From the NCBI GenBank assembly GCA_019787685.1, contig JAHNUO010000025.1, forward strand, positions 248,001-312,000: a stretch of 64,000 nucleotides of DNA, in the 5' to 3' direction. Position 1 is the stretch's first letter, and each line of letters opens with the position of its first letter. This DNA comes from Chiua virens (Eukaryota; Basidiomycota; Agaricomycetes; Boletales; Boletaceae). The notes under the pieces are model-generated. The model had not been told where the DNA came from, made no database searches, and saw nothing but the letters and a program-made list of their open reading frames with translations. Made by a program: the position numbers and the translations under genes. Below are positions 30,837 through 54,120 of the stretch, piece after piece.

Positions 30837-31100
30837 ATGTCTCTCTTCACCCGCATTCTTTCGTACACTTTGACGATCCTCACAAGAATCACAAGATCTA
30901 TCTTCTCATGTCTTTTCGATTTATCAAATGCTTTCCTTCACACACCGAGCTTTTTGGTAGGATGTGTCAACGGGATGCTGTACGCGCTGAGCCCGAGCGC
31001 ATTTCTCGCTCGCTGCCAGTAGGTTTCAGATTATTGACTTGAAGGGACCTATCAATTGATACAGATTTCAACGTTCAACTAGCGAACGCTACGGTCCCGT
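30837..31100 (+). pseudogene. Cytochrome P450 copy 1, 5' part (exon 1 and first 18 bp of exon 2)
   Basis: Exon 1 is 30837-31018 (60 codons plus 2 nt), with a hydrophobic N-terminus (LFTRILSYTLTILT), the usual ER-membrane anchor of microsomal P450s. The intron is 31019-31082 (GTAGGT to CTAG). Exon 2 starts at 31083 (ERYGPV) and breaks at 31100 where the 17-kb element begins. The coding sequence resumes at 48234. Both halves together have exactly the exon lengths of the intact copy 2, so the gene was open until the insertion. Confidence 0.9.
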
Positions 31101-31189
31101 CACATACTTCAGTCAATCACTCTCGCAAAAGTGGTTCCCCCGGCATGTACATTTCCTCGTCAAAGTGGTACCCGCGGCATTCCGGCCGG

Positions 31190-32470
31190 AAATCAGTGAT
31201 TGGTACCGGCCGCCCCTCACTGTAGGCCAGCCAGTACCAATGCTGATCTAATGGGTCATGCATGAGTAGTACCAGCCCATCCTCTTCTCTGTGAGGGGCC
31301 AGCTGGTACCAGTGCCCAACTAATAGCTCACATGTGAGTAGTACCGGCCGTCCCTCTTTGCCTGTGACTGCCAGTGGTACTGGCTGACCATGTGAGAAAG
31401 GGCTGGCTGGTACCAGTGCCTAGCCAGATGGGTCATGTGTGTGGTACCAGCTGATCCTCTTGTGTAAGAAAGGGCTGGCCGGTACCAGTGCACATCTACT
31501 GAATCATGTGTACAGGGTACTGGCCGGCCCTCTCAAGAACAGGGGGCCGGCCAGTACCCCCAGCATCCAATCAGATAGCTCATGTGGGAGTGGTACCAGC
31601 TGGTCCACTTTGTCTGTGAAGTAGTACTGGCTGACCCTCTCATGTGTGAGGGCCGGCCAGTTCCAGTTCCCAGCCAGATAATGTGGGAGTGATACTGGCT
31701 GTTCTCCTCATGCGTGAGAGGGTCAGCCAGTACCAGTTGCACATGCACTACTGGGTCATGTGTGCATGGTACCAGCTGACCCTCTTGTGTGTGTCAGTGA
31801 TGGGGCCAGCCGGTAGTACTAGTGCCAAACTAGATATGTCATGTGGAGGTGGTACCAGCTGGCCCCTTTCATCTGTGACTGCCAATGGTACTGGCTGACC
31901 CTCTTGTGTCAGCATGTGAGGGAGTCGGCCAGTACCAGTGCTCACATAATAGGTGATGCTGTGTTGGTACCGGCCAACCCTCTTGTGTCAGCATGTGAGG
32001 GAGTCGGCCGGCACCAGTGCTCACATAATAGGTGATGCTGTGCTGGTACTGGCCGACCCTCTTGTGTCAGCATGTGAGGGAGTCGGCCGGCACCAGTGCT
32101 CACATAATAGGTGATGCTGTGCTGGTACCGGCCGACCCTCTTGTGTCAGCATGTGAGGGAGTCGGCCGGCACCAGTGCTCACATAATAGGTGATGCTGTG
32201 CTGGTACCGGCCGACCCTCTTGTGTGTAAGGGGGCCAGCCGGTACCAGCACAACAGTGCCCAACTAGATATCTGTGGCAGTGGTACCGGCCAGCTCCCCT
32301 TTATCTGTGACTGCCAGCAGTACTTAGTGGCCCTGTCGCAGTTGTGTGTGGGGCTGGCCGGTACCAGTGCACACATAATGGGTGATGTTGCGAGTGGTGG
32401 TGCTGGCCAACCCTGTTGTGTGCAAGGTGGCCAGACAGAGGTTGGCCAGTACCTGTGCAGGAGCAAGTAA
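31190..32470. repeat. Left subterminal GGTACC-rich array, with four 79-bp units
   Basis: A diffuse repeat based on GGCC(G/A)GTACCAGTGC, CTGGTACCGGCC and TCACATAATAGGTGATG, which between 31964 and 32280 becomes regular with a period of 79 bp (unit starts 31964, 32043, 32122, 32201). Each unit contains an imperfect palindrome (GGTACCGGCCGACC against GGGAGTCGGCCGGCACC). ORFs crossing it are repeat artefacts. A position just inside the transposon end fits subterminal transposase-binding repeats. Confidence 0.8.
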
Positions 32471-32576
32471 AATTGGCACAGCCTGAGAGGACAATTGGTA
32501 ACCACTTTACAAAGTACATTTAAGAATGCATTCAGTCCATTACATTTGCCTGTGGGAATACAACACAATAGTAATT

Positions 32577-34985
32577 CTAAGCATAATCAGAACCAAGAAG
32601 TCTTTTGCTTGGCTTGGTGGCCCGCTTGCCAGCCCTGGTATTGTTCGTACCTTTCTCAACTGTACCTTCCTTTCCCCTCTCCTTTTCAGTCTCTGCATTC
32701 AGTGTCTGTTCTTGACCATCCCTAGCATTTGTTCCCTTTGACTCTGCATCGAGCCTCACCTGGATTTCCTTTACCACTGCCAAGACGTCCTCACAGCTCT
32801 TTACTCCTAGCAAGGAATCTCGAAGCATTTTGGGGGCGTTTTCATCATCTGGTTCAGTCTCCATGGCCCTCCAACACTCACGTAGTAGGAGTCCCAAACC
32901 CAGAACAACAGGTGTACCTTTGTTCCCATCAGAAAACTTACAGGTGTGCAAAGAATGGAGTGTGTGCTGAAACTCTTCCTGATTGATGTGAAGCTCGACA
33001 GGGAGGTATTTTTTGGTCCATCGCCAAGAAGCCCAGGAGGGCAAACTGACCTTGGATGATGGTCCAGAAGACAAAGGGTCTGTAGATGTCTTGACATGTA
33101 TCTTCAACACAGAAGGATCTACAAGACCAAAAAAAGCACTCACAACACGGGGTAAAGTGTACAATTTGTCTAGAAGGGTTTGAAAGGGAGAGGACAGGGA
33201 GAGAGATCTCAAGAAATGGCCCCTATCATGTTGATTGATTGCCGGGCTTTCATTTTCAGCAGTAGAGGAAAGATCAAGGAGACGAGGCCGTTTGGATGAG
33301 GGGGGTTTGATGGACTTGGATGATGAAGAACCTTTGCCCTTGCCAGTACTAGTATGATCTTCCATATCAACGGCATGATCCTTCTCAGGAGCGTCCTCCT
33401 TGTTGGCACTATCTCCCTGATTGTTGTCAGCAACCTCACCTTCACCAGTCCCAACATCAGACTCATTGTCAGAATCTATTTCCCTGTAAGCCTTCCTCTT
33501 GCGTAGGAGAGGCCCAGGATGTTGTTCCTGACGAAGGGCTGCCAAGCTCATGTCCTCCCGCCTGGCCTTGATGAAGCGGACAATTGGGAGCCGTAACTTT
33601 GCATGGGACTCCCAGAAATGCCAGAGCTCGTCAATTGAACTCTTGGTCAATTTTGAGGGGTCAACAACCACCCATCCATCGGGCAGAGAATCAGAGTGAA
33701 GGTACTCCTCTGGCGTCTTGGACAAAGCAAGCCAGGGAACATGAACTTTCTCTTTCTTTGCAACACGTACTAAAACAAAGTAGTAGCGTAAACATCAATT
33801 GAAAAATATACCAGGACCCACCATAAGCCTTTCGGAAGATTTCACGGATAATGTCTTGACGCGTTTTGATACGGACAAAGTTTTCTTGAGGAAAGATGGG
33901 ATGACCTGAAATATCCACTTCAATCTCAGGCGCAGTCTCATCATCATCATCAGATGAAGTCTTCTCCTCGCCTTCTGTCTCTGTTGTTAAGGCAAATAAA
34001 GATATAATTCATCTAGCTTGAATGGTCTGATAAACACCAACCTTTTGTTTCCATGTATTCAGCCAGGTGATCCGCCCCTTGCCGAGCCCAAGTCTTACGG
34101 CTACTGGATGAAAGAGTGAAGCATTTTTCATTTCCAACACGGGCATCAGCTTCGATGCTGAAATAACATAAGTATGATTCTTAAGGGGAAAGAAGTACTT
34201 ACAATGTGGTCCTGATCCCTTCCGGAACCTCATAGCCCATCAGGACTACAGCATGAACCCCCATACTCCGCCGTATAGCATCAATGAACTCAGCAGTGCG
34301 ATTTTTCAGATTTTTCTTGCGGTAGCTAAGAAAACAAAAAGTGGGAGATCATGAACTCAGATCTGTTGAAGAGAAAGAAGCTTGAAAGACCACCTACATT
34401 CTCATCTTTTCGTCATTCTGACAACCTTTTGCATTCCATTTCTCCGCCACCTTCTCAGCCTCTTGCAGCTTGCTTTGCGGAAGCTCATTGAACCACTTCC
34501 TCACGGCAACAGTGCGATTTCCCAGACTCTTCTTGTTGGTCTTGTCCCTGGCCTCACTGTCAACCTTCGCCACCTCATTTGCAAACAGGCGTTGGGCTGT
34601 CCGGAACACATCCCATCTGGTCCAATAGTCTCCAGCGTCAACAGGCCTGCAAGCTGCTTCCCGGTCCTCAGCTGACAGAGGTTCTGCATCCTCAGGCCCA
34701 TCGTCATTGTCCAAGTGGTGGCGAAATTCTGACTGGATTGCCTTAGAATATTAGAATAAATTAGTACTAGAATATGAGAGGTCAAACACAAGTAGTTACC
34801 CGTTTCAAAGGGGACGGGAGTTCAATGGCTTGCTGCTTGTGCAAGGGAGAGTTTACGATCTCATCCCTGCAAGTCTTCAGGATCTCATTCTGAGCAGCTA
34901 CATCCCCCCGAGCCATAATGTAGGGGTCAATGTACTGAAGAAGAATAGGAAAAAAAATGACATTCCAGGCTGACATTGTGCACAA
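32577..34985 (-). CDS. Cargo gene 1: nuclear-looking protein with HMG-like basic region
   Basis: I do not recognise the family with certainty. The last exon (33725-32577, 370 codons) is preceded by exons at about 33832-33990, 34150-34230, 34210-34320, 34394-34740 and 34795-34916 (possible ATG 34916). The early part has a Lys/Arg/Trp-rich helical segment (RTVAVRKWFNELPQSK, EAEKVAEKWNAKG) similar in character to HMG-like regions of transposon-linked mushroom proteins. The final exon has an acidic linker (IDSDNESDVGTGEGEV), a basic stretch (SKSIKPPSSKRPRLLDL) that could be a nuclear signal, and a conserved globular segment (WASWRWTKKYLPVELHI; GTPVVLGLGLLLRECWRAM). Its position inside the element makes it cargo or an accessory factor. 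Confidence 0.5.
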
Positions 34986-35140
34986 TGGATTGCAGGTATA
35001 AAGTCAACAAGGTGAAAATGAGAGGAAATTGTGCGAAACGAATCAACGAACCATCAGATCTGAAGATCAACTCCACTTTGGGTGATTATGTGATAGTGAC
35101 CCAATCAGTCACACCTCGGGCACACCTCGGTAGGTATAGA

Positions 35141-35222
35141 GAACATATTGGGAACATACTGTTCATTGCCATGGCAACTGCCCTGTTGCCATGGCAATGA
35201 ACAGTATGTTCCCAATATGTTC
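35141..35222. repeat. Perfect 38-bp inverted repeat with 6-nt loop
   Basis: Left arm 35141-35178 (GAACATATTGGGAACATACT...) and right arm 35185-35222 are exact complements; the loop is TGCCCT. It lies between the two minus-strand cargo genes, about 150 bp past the end of one and 160-230 bp before the start of the next. A transcript through it would form a stable hairpin. Confidence 0.9.
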
Positions 35223-35368
35223 ATAGAGCATAGTTGCTCTTGCCTGTGGTGTTAATGTAACATACATTTCATCACTGTACATTTTTAGAACTTCATTTGA
35301 CAAACTCAATCAAACCAAACAAATTCAGCAATTGCCAACCCAATGAAATTGAAGTACTAATATGTAAG

Positions 35369-36902
35369 CTAAACGACAACAACCTTGAGCCAAGCCCAAG
35401 GAGTCTGTCGCTTGTTGTGAAGTATAGTACATTCAGGACGCTTAACTACAAAACCATACCTTTCCACATCTTCATTTCCACACAACTCATTGTTGCATTC
35501 AAAGGAGTAATCGCGGCCAGACAGACACACACCTTCCCACTTCTGAAATACCCCACACTGGGGGCACTGCACAGGGTTTCGCTGTCCCCATGGCTGGATG
35601 TTTTTGTGAGCCCAGGTATAACGTGTCACAGTACCTTGATGAAAGTGTAACACCGCAGAATGGCGACCCAGCTCACTCACTTCCTGCAAGTTCTCCTCCA
35701 GGCACTTGACAAAGTCATACCCGTGAACCACAATGCCCCGAGTGAGCCGCATCAACAGTTCAGCAGTTGTAAGGGCCTGTAAGTGAGGGGCATCAAATGC
35801 CAGCGCATGGCAAACATCAAATCTAATACAAGTTGGAATTTGTGAAGAGACACAAAAAAAAAAAACACTTACGATTGAACAGCAACACATAGCTTCTGGA
35901 AGGACTCGGGTTTGTTGACCACAGACCCACACGACACGAAATAGACTGTAGATCCCTTGAGGTAATTCGCAAAGGGACCTAGAACATACTTCGCGAACTA
36001 TCGGACGCAGTTAGCAAAGTATTGGTTGAAATAAAAGAACACACCTGATCGACTTCAGCCGCTTGCTTGATTCCGTTTTCATCCGTCCCGAGAAAAAAGT
36101 CGCCCGTGTCCGCGTCGGTGTGGTTAACCACCAGAACGACTGTTCGCTCGTAGCTGGGAGTGAGGGACTCGAGATGCTGGGCCACCTGGGCCGGCCACCG
36201 CTCCAAGGCAGTATCAGCTCCCACATCGAACGGGAGCACGAGGCAATCAAGCCCCCCATGAGGGAAGTACTCCCTCAAGGCGAGCTCAATCAGTTGACTG
36301 ACCGTACTGACATTAAGCGTAGCGAGGTGAAGCGTGATGTACAAAGTACGAGGACTCTGTAGGAGGGAGGCCGTCCCGAGCTCAAACGACCCTACCACCT
36401 TCAAAAAAGAAGGTAGCAGGGGTTGTCCGTCTCGAGTAAAACCCTGCAGCTCCCTCAGTAAATAATCACACAATGATAAGGTAAAAAAGGGACGCACCCA
36501 GTAGGGAGCGCGTGATTTTGTGCGCTGCTCGTGGAGCCAGTGGCAGGAGACGCAAGTGAACTTGACGTCGTCGGCAGACATGGCCACGTCGTACCCATTC
36601 GGTATCTCGATACAACGGTCGCAGACGACACGCGGGCACTGGTGGCAAGGGAAGAGCCTGCCACCATCCTGACAAAGACTGCAATACTGCAATCCAGTCT
36701 GAATGAGATCGATATAGCCTGAGCAGGATGAATTAGTCACGCACCTGAGCTATCCCCGTCTCGTCAAAGCGCAAGCGTTTCCCAACGTTCCCGACAGTCT
36801 CCTCAGCAGCCAGGGCGAGTTGCTTTCGCTTTGCCAAACCTCCCGTCGATTTCTTGGCCGTTTGACGAGTCCGGGGCAGGTTAGATGAAGACTTAGGAGC
36901 CA
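35369..36902 (-). CDS. Cargo gene 2: PHD-like zinc-finger protein
   Basis: From ATG 36902 the product starts with a basic, Lys-rich tail (PKSSSNLPRTRQTAKKSTGG), then after an intron a PHD/treble-clef-like cluster (QYCSLCQDGGRLFPCHQC, VVCDRCIEIPNGYD, VKFTCVSCHWLHE) at about 36530-36700. A central globular part follows (LIELALREYFPHGGLDCLVL, YERTVVLVVNHTDADTG), then after two introns ALAFDAPHLQALTTAELLMR and a C-terminal Cys pair set (VQCPQCGVFQKWEGVC, FECNNELCGNED). PHD fingers read histone tails, and the tail resembles a nuclear signal. I infer a chromatin-associated function but cannot name the family. The stop is at 35369, about 60 codons after the last Cys. Confidence 0.6.
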
Positions 36903-37192
36903 TTGGCAGGATGCGGGGTGCGTGGGAACGAGCAGTCGTAACGGAGCGGGTTTGAGGATTGAAAAAGCAAACGAATGCGAATGGTTTACTGTTGCACGTG
37001 ACCGTTGGTCGCGACTCGCGATCCGCGTTCCAATCACGTGCATATCCGCAAAGAGGACAAATAACAAAGCCAAATAAAAAGTGTTGATAATGCCACACGC
37101 TACTCACATCCCACATTGTCCCCCCCCATTGTCTTCCGGCTTCGCCTCTCACTCTTTTATTATTCCACGGAAGTCACCACCTGTTCTCATGC

Positions 37193-37237
37193 TACTTTTA
37201 CATTGTTCAGGACTGCAGCCTGAACAATGTAAAAGTA
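37193..37237. repeat. Perfect 19-bp hairpin
   Basis: TACTTTTACATTGTTCAGG (37193-37211) and its exact complement (37219-37237) are separated by ACTGCAG. It is about 290 bp upstream of cargo gene 2 and 200 bp before the internal satellite array. Confidence 0.85.
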
Positions 37238-37429
37238 CTTGAATCGTGTTAGGTATGTCATCAACGTTTTCCATCATTGCGCTGATCTTTATCTTACAGA
37301 ACCGTCGTGGTCCCTGGTCTACCGTGACGAGATCCGATCAGTGTTGAGATTCGAGCTCACTGGCAGCCTGGTGCGTGTTTCCTTTATTATTCAAAGCTAT
37401 CTACTAATCTCACCATTTACATTTCGTCT

Positions 37430-38330
37430 GGGTTCGCGGGCGGCGGGGCGAATGAGGGCTCGCGGTGTGTGGGTGCGTTTGCACCCCTCTCGCGTTCCTG
37501 CCGTCGTCTCCGTCGTCTGGGATCGTCGGTGGCTACTTGGGCATAGGGTTTGCGGTGTGTGGGTGCGTTTGCACCCCTCTCGCGTTCTCGTCGTCACCGC
37601 CGTGGTTTGGATCGTGGGTGGCGACTTGGGCGTAGGGTTTGCGGTGTGTGGGTGCGTTTGCACCCCTCTCGCGTTCTCGTCGTCGTCGTCGTGGTTTGGA
37701 TCGTGGGTGGCGACTTGGGCGTAGGGTTTGCGGTGTGTGGGTGCGTTTGCACCCCTCTCGTGTTCTCGTCGTCGTCGTCGTGGTTTGGATTGTGGGTGGC
37801 GACTTGGGCGTAGGGTTTGCGGTGTGTGGGTGCGTTTGCACCCCTCTCGTGTTCTCGTCATCATCGTGGTTTGGATTGTGGGTGGCGACTTGGGCGTAGG
37901 GTTTGCGGTGTGTGAGTGCGTTTGCACCCCTCTCGCGTTCTCGTCGTCGTCGTCGTCGTGGTTTGGATCGTGGGTGGCGACTTGGGCGTAGGGTTTGCGG
38001 TGTGTGGGTGCGTTTGCGCCCCTCTCGCATTCTCGTCGTCGTCGCCGTGGTTTGGATTGTGGGTGGCGACTTTGGCGTGGAATTTGCGGTGTGTGGGTGC
38101 GTTTGCACCCCTCTCGCGTTCTCGTTGTCGTCGCCATGGTTTGGATTGTGGGTGGCGACTTGGGCGTAGGGTTTGCGGTGTGTGGGTGCATTTGCACCCC
38201 TCTCACGTTCCCGTCGTTGGTGGGTAGTTGGGCGTAGGGTTTGCCTTGTGTGGGTGCGTTTGCACCCCTCTAGCGCTCCCGTCGTCGGTGGCAAGTTGGG
38301 TGTAGGGTTGCGACTTTGTCATGGGGTTCG
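37430..38330. repeat. Internal 89-bp tandem array, about 10 copies
   Basis: The unit begins GGGTGCGTTTGCACCC (a hairpin) followed by CTCTCGCGTTCTCGTCGTCG, GTGGTTTGGATCGTGGGTGG and GACTTGGGCGTAGGGTTTGC. Starts fall at about 37471, 37561, 37650, 37739, 37828, 37914, 38006, 38095 and 38184, i.e. spacing 86-92 bp, and then shorter units. Length variation comes in threes from a (CGT) run inside the unit. Overlapping ORFs on both strands are by-products. CpG-rich. Confidence 0.85.
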
Positions 38331-38639
38331 TGGTGTGCGGGTGCATTGGCACTCCCTCACGTCCCCATTTATCCTTGTCAAGTATGGTGTGCGGTGTGGT
38401 CGGGATCGGTTGCGTCATGTGGGTGCGGCGTCTTTTCATTTGCCCTTTATGTCTGCAAGCCTGGGTGGACATATGCCATGTGTCCCTCTTGCAGGTATGT
38501 TTTCCAGTTCATTTATTCGTTCTAAATTTCATGCTCCGAGCTATAGGCTTCAGCCAATGTCTTGGCTCGGCTTGCTTCTAAGTACGGATGCTTACTTGAC
38601 CTAATCAATTGGGAATGATAGCTGTGACGAATGGTTTCG

Positions 38640-39190
38640 TCAGTATACCTAACATAGTATAGTTTCGAACCTGTGGCCAGCGCATCAAGGGGTGGGCCCC
38701 CTCTTGGTGTTTTGGCTTCAGCCTTTAGCTTTTGTTGATTCTTTCTCTAGTAGTAAAAATTGTTAAAATTACACATGTACTTCAAACTGTACCAAGTAAA
38801 CACAGAAGAAGCTTTGTCATCTGAATTTAAGTCACGTGATCTGCGATGGTTGCGGAAATTTTGTCCAACCTGGGGGCAGCAAGCACCGTTAAGGCATGCA
38901 TTTCGGTTCGCAGAAAACATGGGTATTATGAACAAATTCCAAATCACCACTAGTAGTATGTTAGCTAAAGTGTATGGAATTACCAGGTGGCTGGTGATAC
39001 AAAGGTGAACATCTTGCTTTTTGAATGTCACAGTGCAATGGAGATGAGTTCGGCTTTTGCGAGGCCAGGAGACAACAATGCTGATACCAGTACAATCTTT
39101 GCGGTGTGGTCCTCTACACTGGGAGATGTTGGGGGGGGTACTGACAATGCATGGGATGGGGAGTGCAGTGGGAAAGGAGCATCTGGGGAG
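38640..39190. repeat. Spacer with a copy of the dispersed repeat seen at 1.5-7.3 kb
   Basis: CATCTTGCTTTTTGAAT at about 39010 and the following AGGCCAGGAGAC and GCTGATA words match the repeat at 1605-1632 and 3245-3290 without the Tc1-like insertion. The stretch before it (38640-39000) is AT-rich and shows no gene. Confidence 0.55.
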
Positions 39191-39457
39191 TCATGTAGGC
39201 CGCAGAAGCATTGAGAGGTGGTGGGGAAATTGGCTTGGGTGGTGATGGATATTGCTGGCTGCACAACAATGGCCGGCTGGTACTTGGTGCAGCTGTGAAG
39301 GGTTCGTGGAAGGTGGTGGGGTGGACTTCTTTGTTGGGAGTAGAATGTAAGTGGGATGGGGACTGAGGCCGGCGAAATCCTTCCGCATCATGTCCTCGAA
39401 CTCCCTTAGCGTGACGGTGGAATCAGCATTTAATTCCCACTCAAGGTACTGGCACAT
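39191..39457 (-). pseudogene. Small coding fragment, unrecognised fungal repeat protein
   Basis: Minus-strand reading from 39457 gives CQYLEWELNADSTVTLREFE followed by DMMRKDFAGLSPHPTYILLP. It looks like the C-terminus of a repetitive mushroom protein family, but I cannot name it. A related word (REFEDMI) occurs at about 19045 in the spacer of the LTR element. Upstream frames are broken. Confidence 0.35.
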
Positions 39458-39564
39458 TCCTGAAGCAATAACGGACCAAGACTTGTGGGAGTGCGTACCA
39501 TTACAGATCTGATTTGAATCTAACTTGGGCCAGTTGGTATTTTTTCTTTCTATTTCAGTAGCTA

Positions 39565-41080
39565 GTGTGGCATGTATTTACAATATCAATGTTGCTATGT
39601 TTTGGGGATGCCTTACGAGTGGCACCTGATTTGCAGGCTTGGCCAAATGATGTGTTTCGTAAAATCTTTGGTAAAGCGTGGGATAATGTTGAAAGTTTAT
39701 TTTTCACACCGTCATTGAACCCAACCTTCGAAACAATTGTTACCTCAGATGGAAAAGGATCTGGCAGATGGTTTGTTACATCATTTGAAGGCAGTTCTCA
39801 TGGAGACAACAATCAAAGTTCCAATTTTTCGAGAGGGGCTAGTCAATATGGAGAAGATGCGGAAGCCTAGGTATTTCATTTATTTCATCTTTTCTCTTTC
39901 CCCAGGTTGATGGAAATTTTGGTAGGCTGAGAGCCAGAGGCCTTGTAGATGATCTGAGCCAAAATTTGGTTCAAGGGCCACATGCTGTGGCTTCAGGTTT
40001 GGCAGATGCTGAAGTGAAACGCTGTGCTGCCTTAATTGCCGCTGCCTTCTTCAACCCCAGTGAGTAGAAACAGCGGCTAACTTTAAGGGCTCTGTGGCTA
40101 ATCAAGTTAGTCCCAGTTGACTGGGATTACGACAGGTTTGCTGAATCGGAGGCCAAAAGGTCCACAAAAAAGTTTTTTCGCATCCGCAAGCTGGGTTCCA
40201 TAACCAAACCCTCAACAATCGTGGATTTGCATGGCAAAATTGTGGCATGGTACCTCCCAGGATTACTCCTTCCTTATCAGGTGGTGTGTTCTTCAGCTAA
40301 TAGTGGCAGGAAATATTCTAACATCCAGGACAGGAAGGGTGGAATAGCTCTATCCTGATGCTGAATGATCTGCTAAACATAGAAGATGGTTCCTCTTGGC
40401 GATCTCACGGATTCGTTGGAGGCGAGAACTCTATTTTTGGCACTGGGAGGCTTGTTGTCTCAGTTGGCAGGTTCATTCAGGGTCACACGGTGAGTTTCAT
40501 TGGTCATTTCTCTAGTTCTCTTCACTCTGGCCCTGATGACTAAGTAATTCAGCGTCTCATTGATCCTATTTACCCTTCATCTTCCCTCGGGTCAGAGAAG
40601 GTTCAGAAATGGCTCAGTGCTATAGAACCATTTGAACAGCTCCTGGATGCTGTTCTCAGGGTGGTGCATCCTGAGATGTGGGCAGTGAACCAAGCGGCCA
40701 CTAAGTTGTTGATTGAGCAGTTAAAGAGGCCCATCCCAATATGGCCAAGTTCTTATGCCAGCATGGATGTCATTGTTAACCGGGTAACGCCCCTGCATAG
40801 TGACCAAGGTGGCGCTTTTTCCTTTTATGACCTTCTAGTGAGCCTGGGTCAGGGCCATGATGCCAAACTCTGCTTGAATGATCTCCAAGCAGAGTTTGCT
40901 TATTCACCAGGAACCATCTTGCTATTTACAGGGAAAGGATTGGCTCACTCTGTGCCTGGGTGGTCTGTGGGGGAGAGGGTAGTTGTTGCACATTATTCAA
41001 AAGATGATGTTCATAACAGGCTAGGGATCAAGCGACCATCATTACCTACTCAGTTACAATGGTGGTTAGTTCACAGCTAG
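39565..41080 (+). CDS. TET/JBP-family 2-oxoglutarate/Fe(II) dioxygenase, with an in-frame TAG upstream of the core
   Basis: TET/JBP enzymes oxidise 5-methylcytosine or thymine in DNA. Exons: a doubtful 5' exon (39565-39870), 39906-40279 (ALIAAAFFNPSE, WLIKLVPVDWDYDRFAE, TIVDLHGKIVAWYLPGLLL), about 40330-40488 (EGWNSSILMLNDLLNIED, FGTGRLVVSVGRFIQGH) and about 40553-41080 (MDVIVNRVTPLHSDQGGAFS). The iron ligands are visible: H and D of LHSDQ (His codon at 40796) and the distal His in GKGLAHSVPGW, followed by GERVVVAHY with the 2-oxoglutarate-binding Arg. TAG at 40065-40067 interrupts the second exon between conserved blocks, so full-length protein is doubtful, although the catalytic exon is open. 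It lies 160 bp before the KDZ transposase on the same strand. Confidence 0.8.
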
Positions 41081-41240
41081 GCTGCATTTCGGCTGCAATG
41101 TATTAAACACTAAATGATTTGGGCAGTTCATATAACTAAGTTCCGGACTCTATGTTTGTCCCATTAGGAATTGGTCCCTAGCACCTATAACTGTCCATGC
41201 AGTGTTTGAGGTTTGCGTTCTTGGACCTTTGACTCAGAGC

Positions 41241-44200
41241 ATGGTGCAACCAAAAACCTCAAAGAAAGCCAGACTTACTACCCTCCATAAGCCAAGGGGT
41301 GCAACTCGTGGCTCTGGGTCTATGATTGTCTTCACACCAACAACTACTAGACGGGGGAAAAAGGCATATAAAGAAGTGGATGCCACCTCCTATTATCAGT
41401 CATCAGATGAGGAAGAGCATACCCTCAGAAGGAAGGTTCCAATAGTCCCTACTCACTCTACCCAAGCTCCTGGCATGCCTGCTGTAAGCTTTCAATAACA
41501 CCCTGACTCTGCCCAGATACTGAGTAAGCTTGGTACAAAGGGTGCTATTGAAGAAGATTTTGAACCTTTGGAAGATGGAGGATTCGCATTCTCACCAAGA
41601 AGAACAAAAGTAAGAGTATGGATTAGTTAAAGGCTGTCTATTTTGCTGATGACAAAAGACCCAAAATGATTTTCTGCGAGAGTGGATTCCGTACAGGTCT
41701 CTCTATCTCTCAACTCTATTACAGTCAGAATGCTTCCACCATTCAAAGTGTACAAGCTGCCATCAGGCTGATGCCAGCATTCGATGTCTTTCATGCTTTG
41801 GCAACCATTCCTGGTGTGGCCCCTGTGCCGTAGATGCTCATTCCTCCCTACCTTTTCACCAAGTTCAACAGTGGAATGGGAGGTTTTATGAAGGGATAGC
41901 TCTTAAAGAGTTGGGGTTTAGTTTAAATCTGGGTCACAATGGAAAAGTGTGCCCTGCCAGTGGTAATGGAGGGGCAGAGTGGTCCAGCGACCAATTTGTT
42001 ATTGTTGACTCTGCTGGCATATTCACACACTCAGTCAAATGGTGTGGGTGTAATGGGGCCTTGGTGGAAAACAAACACCTCCAACTTCTACAGTGTGGAC
42101 TTTTTCCAGCCTCAATCACGAAGCCACAAACTGCCTTCACATTTCGTGTACTGGATGAATTTCTTGTAGATGCACTGGAGTGCAAGACATCTGCTTCAAG
42201 CTTCTACATGAAACTCAAAAGGCTAACAAATAATGCTTTCCCTGATTCACTCCCTGTAAGGCTCTTTCCAATGGTAGTGTGTATAATTTTACCTGATTTT
42301 GTCAGGACCGGTACCGGGAGTTGATGAGAGTGTCCAGAATGTGGAGAGACCTCTGTAACCGAAAGAGAGCTGGTTTTGGTCATGATACCAATATGGGTCT
42401 GAACACGGGGGCCCTTGCCTTATTTTGCCCTGCATGCCCCCAACCAGGAATTAATTTACCTGACAAATGGGAGGAAAAATATAATGAGTGAGTTTATGTC
42501 AGTCACTTTGGAATTAATGACAATGTTGAATTAATGTGAATTTCTAGCGATGTGATTGCTCTTCGTTATGTGGTGGATGGAAACTTCACTGCTCAGCACA
42601 TGAAGATGAAAAAACCTGAGGAGGATGTGTCACTTGCTGATGGGCTGGCCTATATGGTGGAGAATGAGCCTTACCAAGCCCATATCTCCTCAGCCCTGGA
42701 TAGCAAGGAAGCAAGTTGTGACTTCTTATCTAAATATATAATGATCCTGACATTGTCTGCTATAGAGGTCAACTTGCCAAAACCACAGGGCTGTCAATGA
42801 CGCCAACATCGTGAAATCCAACCTTCGTGCCACAGGGATAGGGGCCACTGCTTGTGCTCGGCATGGTTGCTTCGTCCCCCACTCCGTGGTGGATTTCTAT
42901 AAGGGTGAACAGTAAGCATCTAGTCATAAGTCAAATTTCAAACCTGACACTTGGTTTTTAGGCAAAAAAATATGGACTACTCAATTTGCCAAGCAGTTTC
43001 TTATCACTCAACTGGTGTGCAAAAGGCCTTGGTCATATATGACATTGCATGCCAATGGTACACCAATTTCAGGAAAAGGGTAGAGTCTTACAATGGTTTA
43101 TCCTTGCCTAAGGACTTGGAGATCATTCCTGCAATTGGGAAATTTCATTTAAGTGCTCATAAGCCTAGCTGTTTTCCTCAATACAGCCTTATGTTCATCA
43201 AGGGAGCAGGACATATTGATGGGGAGGTCCTAGAAACACTCTGGTCCTCATTTAACAAAATATCCCCCTCTGCTAGGTCAATGAGTTTATCGCATAGGCA
43301 AGAACTCTATGACGACCATATGAGAGATTCTAACTGGAAGAAGTTAGTGGGACTGGGTATGTAGCATCTTAGTCATATTATGTAAATGCTGATGCCATGG
43401 GTTAGTTAAAGCATTGCTCAAGAAGTATAAAACTGCCCTGAATGGCATCAAAATGACAGAAGGTCCCTACCAGGACCTTTGTACTTCCTTGGACCTTGAT
43501 CAATTGGAATGTTGGATGAAAGATGCTGAGAAAGCTGATATTGAAAGAGGAGAGGAATTGGATCTTTATAGCTTGCAGATCAACAAAGGTTTATTTCTTT
43601 TGGATGGAAATTGAAAGGATATACTAATTATGCTGTTATTAGCACCTACTCTATTGGAGATGAGGTTGAATATTATGGGTGAAAAAGCATCACTATCCAT
43701 GGGACAGGGTTCTCTGTCTTGGTTGGTAGAGGGAATAAGTATAGAGGATGCCCAGTATGTTGAAGTCAACCCAGTTATCATTTGCCCTTGTCTGAAGAAC
43801 TTTACAGAGATGCATTGCGTGCTGAGATCAGGGGTTTGCCCAGTAACCCTACTGTCCTCCAAAAGATGGCTATTGCTGAGAAACGTCAGCATCTATCTGC
43901 AAAAATCACCAAGTTCCACCAGTCTGCTTTCCCTTTTCTAGCTGGCATGGATTATGTGGAAATGGCATCTCTGGCCAACGATGATTCAGAATTTTGTCTT
44001 GAAGAGAATAGGGCTGATTCAGAGGATGAAAACCAACAGAACTCTGGGTATGGAGCTGAAGAAGAAATATACAGTGAAGATGACTCAGAAGCTGTCGAGG
44101 AGTGTCCTGAAAACCATCCACTTGTAATGCCTTCTTCAATGGAGGTGTCCTTCAAAAGCGAGTTGGGCTTGAGAAGTTTGATAAAGGAGGAGCTTCAGCT

Positions 44201-44883
44201 GCGTATAGGACAGGCCAATGACTGTCTGGAGCAACTGAGAACTCATTTAGGTCAAAAAGCAATCCTCTACAGAATGAACATCCGAAGCTCAACCTCAGTT
44301 CGCACCGACACCCGATCCAAACAAGAAATTCACAGAACTACATTGAAAATCAACAGGGACATCCGAAGTTACCATCGTGCTAGGAAGGCCCTAAAGTCCT
44401 TGGGAGCAAATCAAGATGTTCTTCAAAAATATCAAGATATACAACAGGCAGATCTCCGTCTCTCCAAAGATATTACAGAGGAGAACAGATTTGGTCAAAG
44501 TTCAGATGTCCTCCCTTGGTTTTGGAGAATTGAAGGTCACTCAGGACAGTCAGATATGTGGAATATCGAATGTAAGTAGCAAGTCCTTCTCTGAAGTGGA
44601 GGATTGTAACTATATCATGATGGCTTGAAAAGTTCTTAGGGTCAGCTGGCTGAAAGCTAGGGCTAGATATACACGGTGGAAGGAGGAGCTGGAGATGGTG
44701 AGACATGAAATGTTTTGGATCACATTATGGTTCAAACATCAGGAGGAAGAGTGGGAGAAAAGATCAAAAAACTCTCAGGAGCCAGGGCATGTTGCATATG
44801 CCGAAAAACAAAAGGACCTTTGGCAAAGGTTCAGACAAAAAGCAGAAAATACATTTGGAAAAGAGATGCTTGTTACCATGTAG
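41241..44883 (+). CDS. KDZ-family transposase with CxC2 cysteine cluster
   Basis: The start is ATG 41241 (basic N-terminus with PKTSKKARL, then SYYQSSDEEEHT). After two introns comes the CxC2 cluster (SECFHHSKCTSCHQADASIR, CLSCFGNHSWCGPC, about 41715-41830), characteristic of KDZ transposases in mushrooms. The RNase-H-like core shows YVVDGNFTAQHMKMKKPEED (first Asp, about 42576), ARHGCFVPHSVVDFYKGEQ, ALVIYDIACQWYTNF (second Asp, about 43045) and GAGHIDGEVLETLWSSFN (Glu, about 43225). C-terminal helices are RVSWLKARARYTRWKEELEM and EPGHVAYAEKQKDLWQRFRQ, ending at the TAG of 44881-44883. About ten introns. I found no certain inactivating change, although two splice junctions (near 42720 and 43775) remain unresolved. 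Confidence 0.88.
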
Positions 44884-44949
44884 CATGAGTTTATGATCTT
44901 CTTTGGACAGCCCAGACAGCCCAAACTGTAGATATACTTCAGTCATACA

Positions 44950-47900
44950 CTAGCACAATCAGGCCAGCCAGTGTCACATAGTATGCATGTTTCTAGGGGA
45001 CTGGTAATAGCCAGGTGGGTGCGATGTGGCTCACCCAGCCATGGGGCTGGTGCTGGCTGAGAGGGTATGACATAGCTCATCCGGCCAGTACCATCCCCAT
45101 GGTGACCATACATCCACAGGACTGGTACCGGCTGTGTGGGTCAGACATGGGTCAACCAGCCGGTACCACCCCCATGGTGACCATACATCCATGGGACTGG
45201 TACCAGCCGGGTGGGTCTGACATGGCTCACCCGGCTGGTACCATCCCCACAGTGACTACACATCCATGAGACTGGTACCAGCCATGGCTCACCTGGCCGG
45301 TACCACCCCTGTAGTGACCATACATCCATGGGCCTAGTACCAGCCGGGTGGGTCTGACATGGCTCACCCGGCTGGTACCATCCCCACAGTGACTACACAT
45401 CCATGGGGCTGGTACCAGCCATGGCTCACCCGGCCAGTACCACCCCCATGGTGACCATACATCCATGGGTCTGGTACCAGCCGGGTGGGTCTGACATGGC
45501 TCACCTGGCCGGTACCATCCCCACAGTAACTATACATCCATGGGACTGGTACCAGCCACATAGGCCAGATATGGCTCACCCAGCCAGTACCACCCCTGCA
45601 GTGGCCATACATCCATGGGCCTGGTACCAGCTGGGTGGGTCTGACATGGCTCACCCGGCTGGTACCATCCCCACAGTAACTATACATCCATGGGACTGGT
45701 ACCAGCCACATAGGCCAGATATGGCTCACCCAGCCAGTACCACCCCTGCAGTGACCATACATCCATGGGCCTGGTACCAGCTGGGTGGGTCTGACATGGC
45801 TCACCCGGCTGGTACCATCCCCACAGTGACTACACATCCATGGGGCTGGTACCAGCCGCATAGGCCAGATATGGCTTACCCAGCCAGTACCACCCCTGCA
45901 GTGACCATACATCCATGGGCCTGGTACCAGCCGGGTGGGTCTGACATGGCTCACCCGGCTGGTACCATCCCCACAGTGACTACACATCCATGGGGCTGGT
46001 ACCAGCCGCATAGGCCAGATATGGCTTACCCAGCCAGTACCACCCCTGTGGTGACCATACATCCATGGATCTGGTATCAGCCGGGTGGGTCTGACATGGC
46101 TCACCCAGCTGGTACCATCCCTGTAGTGACTACACATCCATGGGGCTGGTACCAGCCATGTAGGCCAGATATGGCTCACCCAGCCAGTACCACCCCTGCA
46201 GTGACCATACATCCATGGGCCTGGTACCAGCTGGGTGGGTCTGACATGGCTTACCCGGCCAGTACCACCCCCATGGTGACCATACATCCATGGGTCTGGT
46301 ACCAGCCGGGTGGGTCTGACATGGCTCACCCGGCTGGTACCATCCCCACAGTGACTACACATCCATGGGGCTGGTACCAGCCACATAGGCCAGATATGGC
46401 TTACCCAGCCAGTACCACCCCTGCAGTGGCCATACATCCATGGGCCTGGTACCAGCTGGGTGGGTCTGACATGGCTCACCCGGCTGGTACCACCCCCACA
46501 GTGACTACACATCCATGGGGCTGGTACCAGCCGCGTCGGCCAGATATGGCTCACCCAGCCAGTACCACCCCCATGGTGACCATACATCCATGGGCCTGGT
46601 ACCAGCCGGGTGGGTCTGACATGGCTCACCCGGCCAGTACCACCCCCATGGTGACCATACATCCATGGGTCTGGTACCAGCCGGGTGGGTCTGACATGGC
46701 TTACCCGGCCAGTACCACCCCCATGGTGACCATACATCCATGGGTCTGGTACCAGCCGGGTGGGTCTGACATGGCTCACCCGGCTGGTACCATCCCCACA
46801 GTGACTACACCTCCATGGGACTGGTACCAGCCGCATAGGCCAGATATGGCTCACCCGGCCAGTACCACCCCTGCAGTGGCCATACATCCATGGGCCTGGT
46901 ACCAGCTGGGTGGGTCTGACATGGCTCACCCGGCTGGTACCATCCCCACAGTGACTACACATCCATGGGGCTGGTACCAGCCACATAGGCCAGATATGGC
47001 TCACCCAGCCAGTACCACCCCTGCAGTGACCATACATCCATGGGTCTGGTACCAGCCGGGTGGGTCTGATGTGGCTTACCCAGCCAGTACCACCCCCATG
47101 GTGACCATACATCCATGGGTCTGGTACCAGCCGGGTGGGTCTGACATGGCTCACCCGGCTGGTACCATCCCCACAGTGACTACACATCCATGGGGCTGGT
47201 ACCAGCCACATAGGCCAGATATGGCTCACCCAGCCAGTACCACCCCTGCAGTGACCATACATCCATGGGCCTGGTACCAGCTGGGTGGGTCTGACATGGC
47301 TTACCCGGCCAGTACCACCCCCATGGTGACCATACATCCATGGGTCTGGTACCAGCCGGGTGGGTCTGATGTGGCTTACCCAGCCAGTACCACCCCCATG
47401 GTGACCATACATCCATGGGTCTGGTACCAGCTGGGTGGGTCTGACATGGCTCACCCGGCTGGTACCATCCCCACAGTGACTACACATCCATGGGGCTGGT
47501 ACCAGCCGTGTAGGCCAGATATGGCTTACCCAGCCAGTACCACCCCCATGGTGACCATACATCCATGGGTCTGGTACCAGCCGGGTGGGTCTGACATGGC
47601 TCACCCGGCTGGTACCATCCCCACAGTGACTACACATCCATGGGGCTGGTACCAGCCGCATAGGCCAGATATGGCTCACCCAGCCAGTACCACCCCTGCA
47701 GTGGCCATACATCCATGGGCCTGGTACCAGCCGGGTGGGTCTGACATGGCTCACCCGGCCGGTACCACCCCTGCAGTGACCATACATCCATGGGCCTAGT
47801 ACCAGCCGGGTGTGCCATGTCAGACCCACCCGGCCGGTACCACCCCCAGGTGTTTATAGCCAGTACCACCTCCATGGTGTCCATGCATCCATGGCATTGG

Positions 47901-48120
47901 GCTTTCTTACATGGCATGCCCGGCCGGTACCACCTGCATAGTGCCATAACTCCGTGGGAATTGTACTTGCCAGAAGAGTCCCCACAATGTTGGCTCAACT
48001 GGCCGGTACCAGTCCCAGGGTGTTCATGCGTCTATTGGCTGGTACCACTGCTGTGGTCTCCTCATGAATTCCATATAAATTCTTAGTGTCAGCCAGTACC
48101 ACTTTCACGACCTAGATGTG
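44950..48120. repeat. Right subterminal 75-bp satellite array
   Basis: From about 45015 to 47830 the sequence is a tandem array of 75-bp monomers, about 37 copies, arranged in alternating types: one with CCGGGTGGGTCTGACATGGC, the other with CATAGGCCAGATATGGC. All contain CTGGTACCAG and CATCCATGG palindromes. Because 75 is a multiple of three, the array is open in frames of both strands for about 800 codons, with no real gene. Beyond 47830 units are more diverged up to the transposon end. CTGGTACC/GGCCGGTACC words are shared with the left subterminal array. Confidence 0.9.
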
Positions 48121-48225
48121 TCCCAGATGTGCGTCAACCGGCCGGTCCTCGGCCAGCCCCAGCCAAGCAATGATTTGTACATGTCGGGTGTACCAGTTGT
48201 GCGATGATTTGTGACTGAAGGGTCT

Positions 48226-49561
48226 GGTCCCGTGCACACCGTGTTACTTGGTAGTTTCCGGGTCAAAGTGATCTCTTCAGGAGATGCAATTTCCTCGGTT
48301 TTCTCGGCTTCCCACCAGCTGCTCAATAACGACATTGCGCACCGTTCGGCATTTAGCATCATTTCCGGAGTCACATCCAACCATGCGCATTTCCGCGAAG
48401 TTATGACTCGCGAGCTCTTTCCATTAGTCTACAAACGTTTGTCGCCGCGCCTCTTAGGACAGACAACACAGGGACTCGGGCCTATCCTGTTATCCGAGAT
48501 CAAGAGCTTTCTCCATAATCGCAACGGACCAATATCCTTGACCTCTCTCACCAACGAGCCTCTTTACAACACGACGAATCTTGTTCTTTTCGGAAGTGCA
48601 TTTCCAGCTGGAACATACAGAGACTTCAGGACATTCGACAAAAGCATTCCATACCGATTCTGCATGTCATTGTTTTGGCATTGGCCATCCAACGTAGCGC
48701 GCACGAGGCTATTAAACTCTCTCAAAGGATATTTGCAACAGGAAGAAGCCATCGACCACGATGACCAATTTTCCCGTGGACTTGCGAAGACCTTTAAAGA
48801 CAACGGCATCCAGCCGTTTAAGGGAGCGCAGTTGATCCTCCCTTTATTCTGGGTTATTCATAGCAACATGTCGACCAACTTGCTCTTTTTGCTCTCGTTT
48901 TTACTTGGAAACCCCAACGCCTTTGCGCAAGTTCGCACAGAGATCGATTCAGCGGTCAACAAGTTCGGCAGCTTGAAGGCGCTCCTAGAAGCTGGTGCCG
49001 ACGAGCTGGATGATTCGTCCTTCCAGCTGCTAACATCTGCGATCATGGAGACCCTGAGGATTACAGCACTGTACGGCGGGGTACGGCAAGCAAATTGCGA
49101 CTTTGATTTAAGCGTCAAGGATGGGGTGATACCAATAAAGAAGGGAGAACTCGTGTTATCGAATCTGCGCGCCGTCCATATGGACGCAGACACCTTTCCG
49201 GATCCCGAGAGCTTTGTAGTCGATCGGTTTGCACAGCAACCCTACCGTAGAAGACAACTACAGACAGAAGGATATCCATTCCACTCGCTAGGTGGTGGCA
49301 AGCATATCGTACGTGCGCCTTTTACATGTCAGTCATTTCGCAGTGTTCATGGGATTGCAGTGCAAAGGAAGATGGCTGGCCATCTACACGATCAAAGTTC
49401 TTATGGTCATCTTACTCCACGAATATGACATTCTTCCGGCCAAGGAGGATTCAGTTGGCTGGTGCAAGCTTCGAATCCATCCGCGCAGCATTTCCGTTGC
49501 ACATACAGAAGATGATATTTCTGTGCGGATGGTGCCACGGAATGACGGGGCGAGACTTTGA
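48226..49561 (+). pseudogene. Cytochrome P450 copy 1, 3' part
   Basis: Continuation of the gene begun at 30837. Exon 2 resumes at 48234 and ends at 49308 (18 + 1075 = 1093 bp, the same as copy 2). Exon 3 is 49361-49561 (67 codons with TGA). P450 signatures: K-helix ETLR (SAIMETLRI), the PxxFxxxRF-type segment PESFVVDRFAQQPYRR, and the heme-binding loop split by the intron, HSLGGGKHI joined to CKGR, with the Cys thiolate ligand first in exon 3. The frame is open throughout, so only the transposon blocks expression. The 3' flank (to about 49640) matches copy 2. Confidence 0.92.
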
Positions 49562-49639
49562 ATGGCACCGGGAAGAAATGGTATTGTAGCGAATTCTACC
49601 GAGATGATGTAACTTTGAATGCATGTACTGTCTCTATTT

Positions 49640-50280
49640 CTTTATCAATAACACACCGCGCCATCGCCTTTCTTCTATTGTGATTCTGACTTTTTTTTCT
49701 AGGAACATATCTATGCAAAAGTGAGAGCCAGGCTCAGCGAGAAAGACGATCCCCTTGGGTTAGCCTCTAACCCGACGGGCGAGGGGATGTTACCCGAAAG
49801 AGACGCAACACACACTCTCGAGCCGGGTAAATCTAAGCCAGCAGCCGTCCAGAACGCCAGGATGTCCGACATGCACGAGATCATCAATACTCCCCTTGGT
49901 AGGCAGCGCCTTTTCTCTTTCTCGTCGTACTAATTTTTAATCAGCAAGGTCTAATAAAGTAGAGCCACAGAATGACTCTTCCAGACCACGAAGAACTCCA
50001 CCGCCTCTGCCATCACCACGAGAGGAGGCGTACTAGTAGTACTTATCAACTTGAAGAAGTTTTTATCTCTATTCTTTATTCTCAACCACCGAGTTACTCG
50101 AACCTCGACGACCTCAGGCTCTCAGGCCCTGAGCCCACTCGTTTAACACCGGTCGTCAAATTGAGTTTCTCGAACTGAGTCACTTTATCGATTGATTCGC
50201 ACTTTACACGCACGTTCCACTCACCCCACTGCAACAACTCGTTCGTTTCACTCTGTCATCTCGTTCAATCCCAGTAAGTG
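49640..50280. other. Spacer with a 3' block shared with P450 copy 2
   Basis: An open stretch at 49700-49930 (LSEKDDPLGLASNPTGEG) could be an exon of an unrecognised gene. The stretch 50050-50175 (GTTTTTATCTCTATTCTTTA, GTTACTCGAA, CTCGACGACCTCAGG) recurs at about 53797-53915 behind P450 copy 2, which shows that the duplicated unit extends beyond the gene. The remainder shows nothing. Confidence 0.45.
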
Positions 50281-50282
50281 AT

Positions 50283-50473
50283 CACTTCTGACCAATGCTT
50301 GACATTCGCCGAACGCCTGGTCGCATTCACCGCCGTCGAGAGCTTCTTCTCAGATTCCTTTGCATCCATTTTCTGGCTCAAGAAGCGCGGTCTGAAGCGC
50401 GGTCTCACGTTCGCTAACGAGCTCATCAGCCACAGCGAAGGCATGCATACCGACTTTGCTTATCTGCTCTTCA
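50283..50473 (+). pseudogene. Ribonucleotide reductase small subunit (R2) exon fragment
   Basis: The frame reads [37 protein letters not shown] and [20 protein letters not shown], which is the central helix region of class Ia ribonucleotide reductase small subunits, including the EGMHTDFA segment that carries an iron-binding Glu and His. One residue is missing in the ESFFSDSF segment relative to the family pattern. Homology starts at a CAG-like boundary near 50280 and stops after LLFSHL at about 50473. No other part of the gene was found nearby, so it is an isolated exon-sized fragment, not a working gene. Confidence 0.8.
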
Positions 50474-50479
50474 GCCACC

Positions 50480-51147
50480 TCCCTACACCTTATCCCCCGA
50501 GCCACCCTTCGTGCCACCTGGGCACGATGACGATGTCACAGCGTGCTGCTTCAATGACGCAGCACATTGTCGCATCGTCAACGCGCCTCACCCTCCCTGC
50601 ACTCACTCACCCTCCTTCGCCCTCTGTCACGGTGCCACCTCACCCCATGACAACTCAGACACGACACACAATACGACGATGACGACATGTGCGTCGACAA
50701 CACCCCTCCCTCCCCTCCTTTCTGCTCTCCCTCTCCCTCTCGCCTGTGTATTGCCACAACGACTTGGACGACGCATGACGACGACGCAATGAAAATGAGA
50801 CGTCGACATGATGTGATGACGATGCGACAATGTGTCACATCGTCCATGCGTCGTGTTGTCTTCCTCTGCGTGTCGACTCACTCCGGACCCGTGCTAACTT
50901 GCCGTAACACGATGGGGACACGACGACGACGGCACAATGAGAACGATTGTGTCGTCTCGTTTCGCTGGTCATGTGCCACGGCCCGCCACGTCGATTCACC
51001 ATTGCGTTGGACGTACCCTTTCTTTGGCACAGACTCGCTGCACGACCCGTCACGGATTTCCACTTTCAATCATGTATGTAGGTGTATTCTGACGATGTGG
51101 TTACGACTCATCATCTTGTTAGCTCAGTTGATTTATGCGGATAATTG
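50480..51147. other. Low-complexity CGA/GATG-rich spacer
   Basis: It is rich in GACGATG, CGACGA and their complements. A 17-bp inverted pair CACATTGTCGCATCGTC (about 50563) and GACGATGCGACAATGTG (about 50818) is present. The ORFs crossing it (for example 50687-51241) are compositionally biased and unlikely to be genes. Confidence 0.4.
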
Positions 51148-51360
51148 TGGGGTGACAAATGACATTACGACCACTTATTCGTGGCGTGTGTGCTATCGCA
51201 CAAGAGGGCGTGGCTTGACGTGGACAGCACGGTGGCGCTAACGGTAACTTGCTTGTTGCAGGATTTTTATATTGAACCTCGTGAACATGCCGGCTAGCAC
51301 AGGAAATCTCCACGAGGATAAATAGTTCGAGGTTTCGCCCCGTCTCGGATAGAGATCAGC

Positions 51361-52953: not shown

Positions 52954-53036
52954 ATGGCACCGGGAAGAAATGGTATTGTAGCGAATTCTACCGAGATGAT
53001 GTAACTTTGAATGCATCTGCTGCCTCTATTTCTTTA

Positions 53037-53752: not shown

Positions 53753-53796
53753 TATCAATAACACAGCGAGATGTAGACACTTGAACATCTTGAAGT

Positions 53797-54049
53797 TTTT
53801 ATCTCTATTCTTTATTCTCAGCCACCAAGTTACTCGAAACTCGACGACCTCAGGCCCGAGGGCCCTGAGTGCACTCATTTAACACCATTCATCAAATTGA
53901 ATTTCTCAGCTAAGTATCATCATGATTTCAATCATACTCGCTATGAATTACTAAAGGGCATGTGCAGATGGCGGCATTGCATGCAGCATAAAGGATAAAC
54001 GGTGGCTCAAACAGCAGGTTTAGATCGGGCCAGAAGATACATTGTCAAC
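53797..54049. other. Duplicated-unit 3' block and spacer
   Basis: The first 120 bp match 50050-50175 behind P450 copy 1. The rest up to the P450 copy 3 relic has no recognisable feature. Confidence 0.45.
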
Positions 54050-54120
54050 TAATGGAAAGAGCTTGCGTGTCATAACTTCGTGGAAATGCGCATGGTTGGA
54101 TGTGGTTCTGGAAATGATGT
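54050..54120 (-). pseudogene. Cytochrome P450 copy 3, downstream remnant
   Basis: The minus strand reads the P450 exon-2 segment around SNHAHFHEVMTR (CATCCAACCATGCGCATTTC). Homology ends near 54050, so this copy is 3'-truncated. The upstream part is at 61082-61471, on the far side of the Gypsy element. Confidence 0.8.

Follow-up and report, generated by a model that had tools for sequence, protein, structure and literature searches.

A Kyakuja-like KDZ transposon of Chiua virens with a TET/JBP gene and a predicted histone H3-tail mimic

The region considered here is a 64,000-nucleotide stretch of the genome of the Boletales fungus Chiua virens (C25:248001-312000, referred to as the window), taken from a 48.3-Mb assembly of 136 contigs to which all genome-wide counts refer. 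It contains a transposable element inserted in a P450 exon. A preliminary description of this DNA had proposed a single KDZ transposon with TET/JBP and chromatin-type cargo, having one pair of ends and interrupting one P450 exon, and this outline is upheld by the analysis. The features are as follows, with positions counted from the first base of the window.

31101..48226, plus strand: whole element, 17,126 bp, with CA..TG termini, delimited by flank alignment and end pairs
31094..31100, no strand: target-site duplication GTCCCGT (7 bp), left copy
48227..48233, no strand: target-site duplication GTCCCGT (7 bp), right copy
31886..32225, no strand: left subterminal array of 79-bp units with GGTAYYRGCC sites
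32577..34916, minus strand: gene A, encoding a basic, rapidly evolving protein that may be HMG-like (exon 34397-34744; approximate splice model)
35369..36903, minus strand: gene B, with predicted H3-tail mimic, PHD-like finger, CHAT/caspase-like domain and C-terminal Cys cluster
36814..36876, minus strand: putative H3-tail mimic PRTRQTAKKSTGGLAKRKQLA, first coding exon of gene B
36120..36122, minus strand: invariant His codon (NHTD) of the caspase-like domain, H246
35929..35931, minus strand: invariant Cys codon (SCGS) of the caspase-like domain, C294
37455..38309, no strand: central CpG-rich array of 89-bp units, separating the divergent pairs A/B and TET/KDZ
40068..41080, plus strand: gene C, a predicted TET/JBP dioxygenase (catalytic exon 40544-41080; exon boundaries upstream of 40068 provisional)
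41241..44579, plus strand: gene D, the KDZ transposase (CxC2 cluster 41668-42291; KDZ core 42972-43358)
45039..47848, no strand: right subterminal array of 75/150-bp units with GGTAYYRGCC sites

The element starts at 31101 with CACATACTTCAGTCA and ends at 48226 with TGACTGAAGGGTCTG, and CTTCAGTCA is shared by both termini as imperfect inverted ends, which had been described before and are seen in the element as well as in its paired copies. When the flanks are fused with a single copy of the duplication, their alignment with 51227-52024 (the empty-site paralogue) is uninterrupted, at 94.6% identity, and give an open frame identical to P450 copy 2 around the insertion site, in agreement with the uninterrupted paralogous site proposed earlier; the exon downstream of the insertion matches Pfam p450 (E 7.5e-18). 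The original right end at 48225 is corrected to 48226, and the original 8-bp duplication to 7 bp, since the element's own last base is G, which makes the eighth position a chance match, and 7-bp duplications abut the CA..TG ends in six of the eight paired copies. Diverged copies or pieces of the P450 region near the insertion lie at 48226-53036, 53792-54119 and 61082-61515 of the window, one of them being the empty-site reference.

The pattern CANANNCTTCAGTCA occurs at 32 places in the genome (11 CACATA, 10 CAGACC, 10 CAGATC and 1 CACAAC) versus 0+3 for a reversed-pattern control, and eight CACATA/CAGACC pairs are convergent at a spacing of 14.5-17.4 kb. Exact 7-bp duplications lie beside the CA..TG ends of six of these eight paired copies, and none is found in C3a and C5a; CA was fixed in the end-pattern search, and the duplications nevertheless abut it in the six copies. 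Over long blocks, C10b, C25a, C12 and C5b share about 97-99% identity with the window copy, and C5a is an older copy with insertions and about 89-97% identity. A second subfamily is formed by C10a and C3a; its transposase is about 68% identical at the nucleotide level, and the inverted similarity of its ends, judged by eye, reaches well past the first 60 bases. The start of a third subfamily lies at C2:2762880, where a gap of about 7.5 kb separates two transposase exons and no right end was found within the stretch examined. The gene order and strands (A and B on the minus strand, TET and KDZ on the plus strand) are constant across all three subfamilies. In the compared exons, every gene is free of stops in four of the eight paired copies (the window copy, C12, C25a and C5b). 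C10b has one stop in A and one in TET; C5a has four in A, two in B and two in KDZ; C10a has one in B and two in KDZ; and C3a has one in B.

The gene match counts across the genome are lower bounds. Gene A has at least 15 matches at 10 loci (the eight pairs, C9 and C2), all of which adjoin a CACATACTTCAGTCA end, and gene B has at least 19 matches at 14 loci, including nine in these elements and one in C14 next to TET. At least 23 matches were obtained for TET (eight within the pairs and one each in C2 and C14) and at least 124 for KDZ. C9 retains A and D, and not B and TET. The preliminary description had staked its reading on the ends co-occurring elsewhere and on the genes and arrays not occurring independently; within the Chiua virens genome, the ends are again found in pairs, and the genes and arrays stay together as a set. 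As separate observations, for seven of the 13 TET matches outside these elements, KDZ is matched on the opposite strand no more than about 4 kb away, a second TET-KDZ layout (C17:648489, C21:153051, C26:25024, C4:495991, C23:85792, C28:338927 and C11:585301), and two equal-scoring TET matches in opposite orientation, each with a stop, lie about 4 kb apart at C21:306742 and C21:310514. Ten CAGATCCTTCAGTCA sites (e.g., C2:268751 and C5:1878719) are without a CACATA partner; the sequence near two of them is 78-92% like an insert in C5a, perhaps representing a shorter related family.

Gene D matches the KDZ (PF18758, 5.7e-30) and CxC2 (PF18803, 1.1e-29) families of Pfam, consistent with the catalytic motifs and cysteine cluster recognized earlier. 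Gene C matches Tet_JBP (PF12851, 2.8e-13) and keeps the HxD...H iron ligands, and its catalytic exon matches CcTET of Coprinopsis cinerea (7vpn) with E 3e-13, only about 100 residues being aligned. In this alignment HSDQGGAFSFYD stands opposite HRDTSGPIEGMD, and therefore His326, Asp328, Gly331 and Asp337 of CcTET have equivalents. Gly331 and Asp337 are linked to the use of 5-methylcytosine (5mC) and N6-methyladenine (6mA) (Kojima 2025, PMC12730594). The iron ligands noted in the first description are thus present, together with both CcTET substrate residues. The protein model of gene A shows three helices with a predicted local distance difference test score (pLDDT) of about 50-63; no HMG match was found by Pfam, Foldseek or VIA-align, and matches were few overall. 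A divergent HMG protein is reportedly mentioned for KDZ elements in the abstract of the founding KDZ paper, and gene A is at most a possible HMG protein.

The first exon of gene B translates to MAPKSSSNLPRTRQTAKKSTGGLAKRKQLALAAEE, and in a phmmer search against PDB chains the best 60 of 131 matches (E<=10) are all histone H3 (top 2.3e-5). The equivalent starts in C10a (MARTRFTTKKATGG), C3a (MARTRFTAKKATGG), C2 (MARTAQTVKKTTGA) and C14 (MPRTLRTAKKSTGG) follow directly after the Met and in the H3 register. In the window subfamily, that Met codon is CTG (36879), and the nearest ATG lies 24 bases upstream (36903). Among predicted proteins, the relatives of protein B are P0001 (99%) and P0002 (63%) of Chiua virens and P0003 of Amanita muscaria; an alignment-based protein search returned the same three, and a scan of prokaryote genomes returned none. 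P0003 has TAQTAKKSTGG within a longer predicted start, the gene model of which may be wrong. Across five aligned B proteins, the H3 positions T3, T6, K9, T11 and G12 are invariant, the R8 position is K in all five, and the K4 position is R, L, A, R and A, never Lys. The 13-residue H3 match is equalled by 0, 0, 4, 0, 4 and 0 of 20,000 shuffles for six sequences, and over 21 residues C2 is weaker, with 23 of 20,000 shuffles equalling it. Between the window copy and C14, codons 1-13 after the start carry five synonymous and two nonsynonymous changes, the latter only at the K4/Q5 positions; in C10b and C5a, the mimic is eroding. Since PHD-like and caspase-like parts follow the H3 tail in place of a histone fold, the stretch is regarded as a mimic and not as a histone. 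A weak match to the H3-like start at C20:109587 (E 0.008, 51% over 37 residues) may be a host H3 gene.

For the rest of protein B, the PHD-like fingers described before are only partly sustained: a profile of the B family matches the PHD fingers of CHD4 (3.5e-6) and PHF21A (4.9e-4), but the Pfam PHD score of 13.1 bits lies below the 24-bit cut-off, and a CK2-beta match (3.9e-5) likewise falls short of its own. A caspase-haemoglobinase fold was found on the predicted structure of P0002, in a match list of which ranks 2 and 3 are not caspases. There, H214 follows a strand at 206-212 and C262 a strand at 256-260, and this His/Cys pair is invariant in five of five rows. No Pfam peptidase match was obtained at E<=1 for the gene exons or for P0001-P0003.

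All three satellite arrays of the earlier account were found, with 79-bp, 89-bp and 75/150-bp units. The left end, central and right end arrays are present in subfamilies 1 and 2 and at those same three places in C2, within the stretch examined, and their copy numbers differ among element copies. With both strands of the window copy counted, the left 1,350 bp hold 12 GGTAYYRGCC sites, the right 3,226 bp hold 63 and the intervening 12,550 bp hold none, versus shuffle expectations of 0.05, 0.27 and 0.07, respectively. C10a has instead GGTRTYRGCC (9 left, 40 right, 0 middle), with a single cross-occurrence in each direction; C2 has both patterns, and the middle of the element is free of both in ten of ten copies. 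The dyads of the end arrays differ accordingly by subfamily (GGTACCGGCC and GGTGTCGGCC), and the end arrays look like subfamily-specific protein-binding sites. The nonsynonymous divergence (dN) between the window copy and C10a is 0.54 for A, 0.57 for B, 0.35 for TET and 0.33 for KDZ; divergence is faster in A and B than in the other two genes, which makes protein A a candidate dyad binder. As single-stranded DNA, one unit of the left array and one of the right fold better than their shuffles (z -2.7 and -3.9); the value for the central unit is -2.2. A subfamily-2 control of uncertain array membership (L033:9154-9228) folds no better than shuffles and was left out of account. C12 has, in addition, a fourth array of nine 39-bp units at element positions 4038-4392, of which C25a has three units and which the same scan did not report in the remaining paired copies.

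The decay of the copies was followed in an alignment of six subfamily-1 copies, restricted to gapless columns in which at least five of six bases are equal (13,030 positions, of which 676, or 5.2%, lie in CpG). Of the 379 private changes, 231 are CpG transitions: 2 of 5 in the window copy, 8 of 8 in C12, 4 of 6 in C25a, 6 of 7 in C5b, 33 of 47 in C10b and 178 of 306 in C5a. In C5a, the transition rate is 26% at CpG positions versus 1.4% at other C/G and 0.4% at A/T. Since private changes are mostly CpG transitions, as left by 5mC deamination, CpG methylation is indicated; the host genome has three above-cut-off matches to the C5-methylase family. The observed/expected CpG ratio of the central array is 1.00-1.24 in seven of the eight paired copies, the exception being C5a with 0.50; in C2 it is 0.36. 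The arms range from 0.26 to 0.64, and the values for the window flanks are 0.50 and 0.97. No sparing of the central array was seen in resident copies, its CpGs being lost as fast as those elsewhere. We read the central ratio as a sign that the mobile lineage is protected or under selection over the long term, with neither acting once a copy falls silent; turnover of the array units is an alternative.

What is observed are ends in pairs flanked by 7-bp duplications, copies that are nearly identical, and a module of four genes and three arrays that is found in two diverged subfamilies as well. On the joint reading, the element is likely to be a recently active, probably autonomous TET-bearing (TET+) Kyakuja-type KDZ DNA transposon with anti-silencing functions. 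New copies would be at risk of 5mC and heterochromatin. The KDZ protein would cut at the CA..TG ends, and the transposase CxC2 cluster or protein A may bind the end-array dyads in the manner of the TNPA-like proteins of CACTA elements. The TET enzyme would oxidise 5mC on the element, and protein B may interfere with histone-based silencing by the host, through H3 binding via its PHD-like finger, through H3 clipping, or with the mimic as a pseudosubstrate or K9 decoy. Combined, these activities would leave a new copy expressed and mobile prior to methylation and decay. The cargo of the element suggests, short of proof, that two layers of host gene silencing are counteracted. A specific two-layer kit, in which TET oxidises 5mC and B is a PHD-aimed caspase-like H3 protease with a pseudosubstrate mimic, or else acts as a K9 decoy towards the H3K9 methyltransferase/HP1 machinery of the host, is put forward tentatively, as a possibility we would not yet bet on.

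Several observations weigh against the joint reading. Gene B is interrupted in C2 and in both subfamily-2 copies, four of its 14 loci lie elsewhere (C8, C11, C9:1958287 and C83), and nothing H3-like was found in the roughly 420 bases upstream of the distant paralogue in C8. Gene A is absent at one of 11 CACATACTTCAGTCA ends (C3:1086896), 13 of the 23 TET matches lie outside these elements, and C14, which has B and TET, showed no A or KDZ within the 9.9 kb examined. dS (synonymous divergence) is saturated between the subfamilies, and therefore provides no measurement of selection there; within subfamily 1, the substitution counts are too few, and in C10b nonsynonymous exceed synonymous changes in A and B. 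The motif patterns of the end arrays were picked post hoc, from arrays already inspected, and the CpGs of the central array are lost at 29 of 462 site-copies versus 184 of 3306 in the rest.

Three other explanations were weighed. That the element is an ordinary TET+ Kyakuja in which A and B are incidental passengers, the H3-like start being a functionless run of basic sequence gained by capture or convergence, would fit the broken B gene in three of the diverged copies, the B paralogues outside the elements and the published occurrence of TET+ Kyakuja, Boletales included (PMC12730594); but A and B persist across three subfamilies, the mimic stands directly after the Met in the H3 register in C14 and in subfamilies 2 and 3, and its residues are kept at the protein level between the window copy and C14, so we hold this explanation to be rather unlikely. 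The preliminary description took the arrays as methylation targets and TET as the enzyme that keeps them unmethylated. The strong CpG-transition signature, the methylase-family matches of the host and the high central ratio relative to the arms speak for this proposal, yet the central array decays like the rest, the left array does no better (18 of 288 site-copies), the central ratio drops in old C5a and in C2, and binding motifs account better for the end arrays; the proposal that methylation is undone on the CpG-rich arrays is half supported, by the methylation signature, and appears unlikely as the role of the arrays. Passive satellites grown by slippage or unequal exchange would account for the varying copy numbers, but hardly for three arrays at fixed positions with related dyad units at the ends, and are considered quite improbable.

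Since 7-bp duplications, CA..TG ends and KDZ with TET are published signs of TET+ Kyakuja, the core of the element is known. The H3-tail mimic, the CHAT/caspase-like domain and the published status of TET+ Kyakuja are additions beyond the preliminary description. Neither a protein combining H3 mimic, PHD-like and caspase-like parts, nor a four-gene module over three subfamilies, nor a switch of end motifs between subfamilies was found reported in open-licence literature listings, which do not cover the founding KDZ paper (Iyer et al. 2014). If the favoured reading of the element as an anti-silencing Kyakuja is true, fungal DNA transposons counter silencing on DNA and on histones through one gene module, an H3-tail mimic working alongside a TET enzyme has evolved in, or been captured by, a mobile element, and the purpose of transposon-borne TET genes becomes directly testable. 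The end-array switch between subfamilies is a natural experiment on the co-evolution of an element and its binding protein.

Short H3-tail-like peptides around K9 are known from the histone mimics of G9a and influenza NS1. Here, the putative mimic belongs to a transposon-encoded protein that also has a PHD-like finger and a caspase-like domain, and its K4 position is never Lys. TET+ Kyakuja transposons with 7-bp duplications, including those of Boletales, have been published (Kojima 2025, PMC12730594), and the Chiua element resembles them in its KDZ transposase, AG-type TET/JBP gene, 7-bp duplications and CA..TG termini. A Zisupton assignment was rejected in favour of Kyakuja on the strength of the 7-bp duplications and the CA..TG ends. 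Inverted repeats are not reported for the Laccaria Kyakuja families in that paper, whereas the Chiua element has imperfect inverted ends, long in subfamily 2; the lack of terminal inverted repeats is doubtful as a defining feature of Kyakuja. The main text of PMC12730594 contains none of the terms 'PHD', 'zinc finger', 'subterminal', 'tandem repeat', 'HMG', 'caspase' and 'CHAT' and describes no H3 mimic; it does record transposons with histone-directed cargo (SET methyltransferases). Regarding CcTET (PDB 7vpn, 8jkk), the predicted enzyme appears alike in its iron ligands and Gly331/Asp337 equivalents. In CACTA elements, subterminal palindromes are bound by TNPA-like proteins and differ between subfamilies (PMC2613891). 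En/Spm and Tgmt* share with the Chiua element short terminal repeats, many subterminal palindromes with one side richer, and motifs that vary while the transposase is conserved; however, their transposase and motif sequence are unrelated and TET is absent. Transposons with anti-silencing proteins are known from VANDAL (PMC5735166), where VANC, likened here by description only, is not a dioxygenase, whereas the Chiua element has a TET enzyme and a putative H3 mimic; the two have in common transposon-encoded anti-silencing, predicted for Chiua, and fast-changing tandem-repeat targets.

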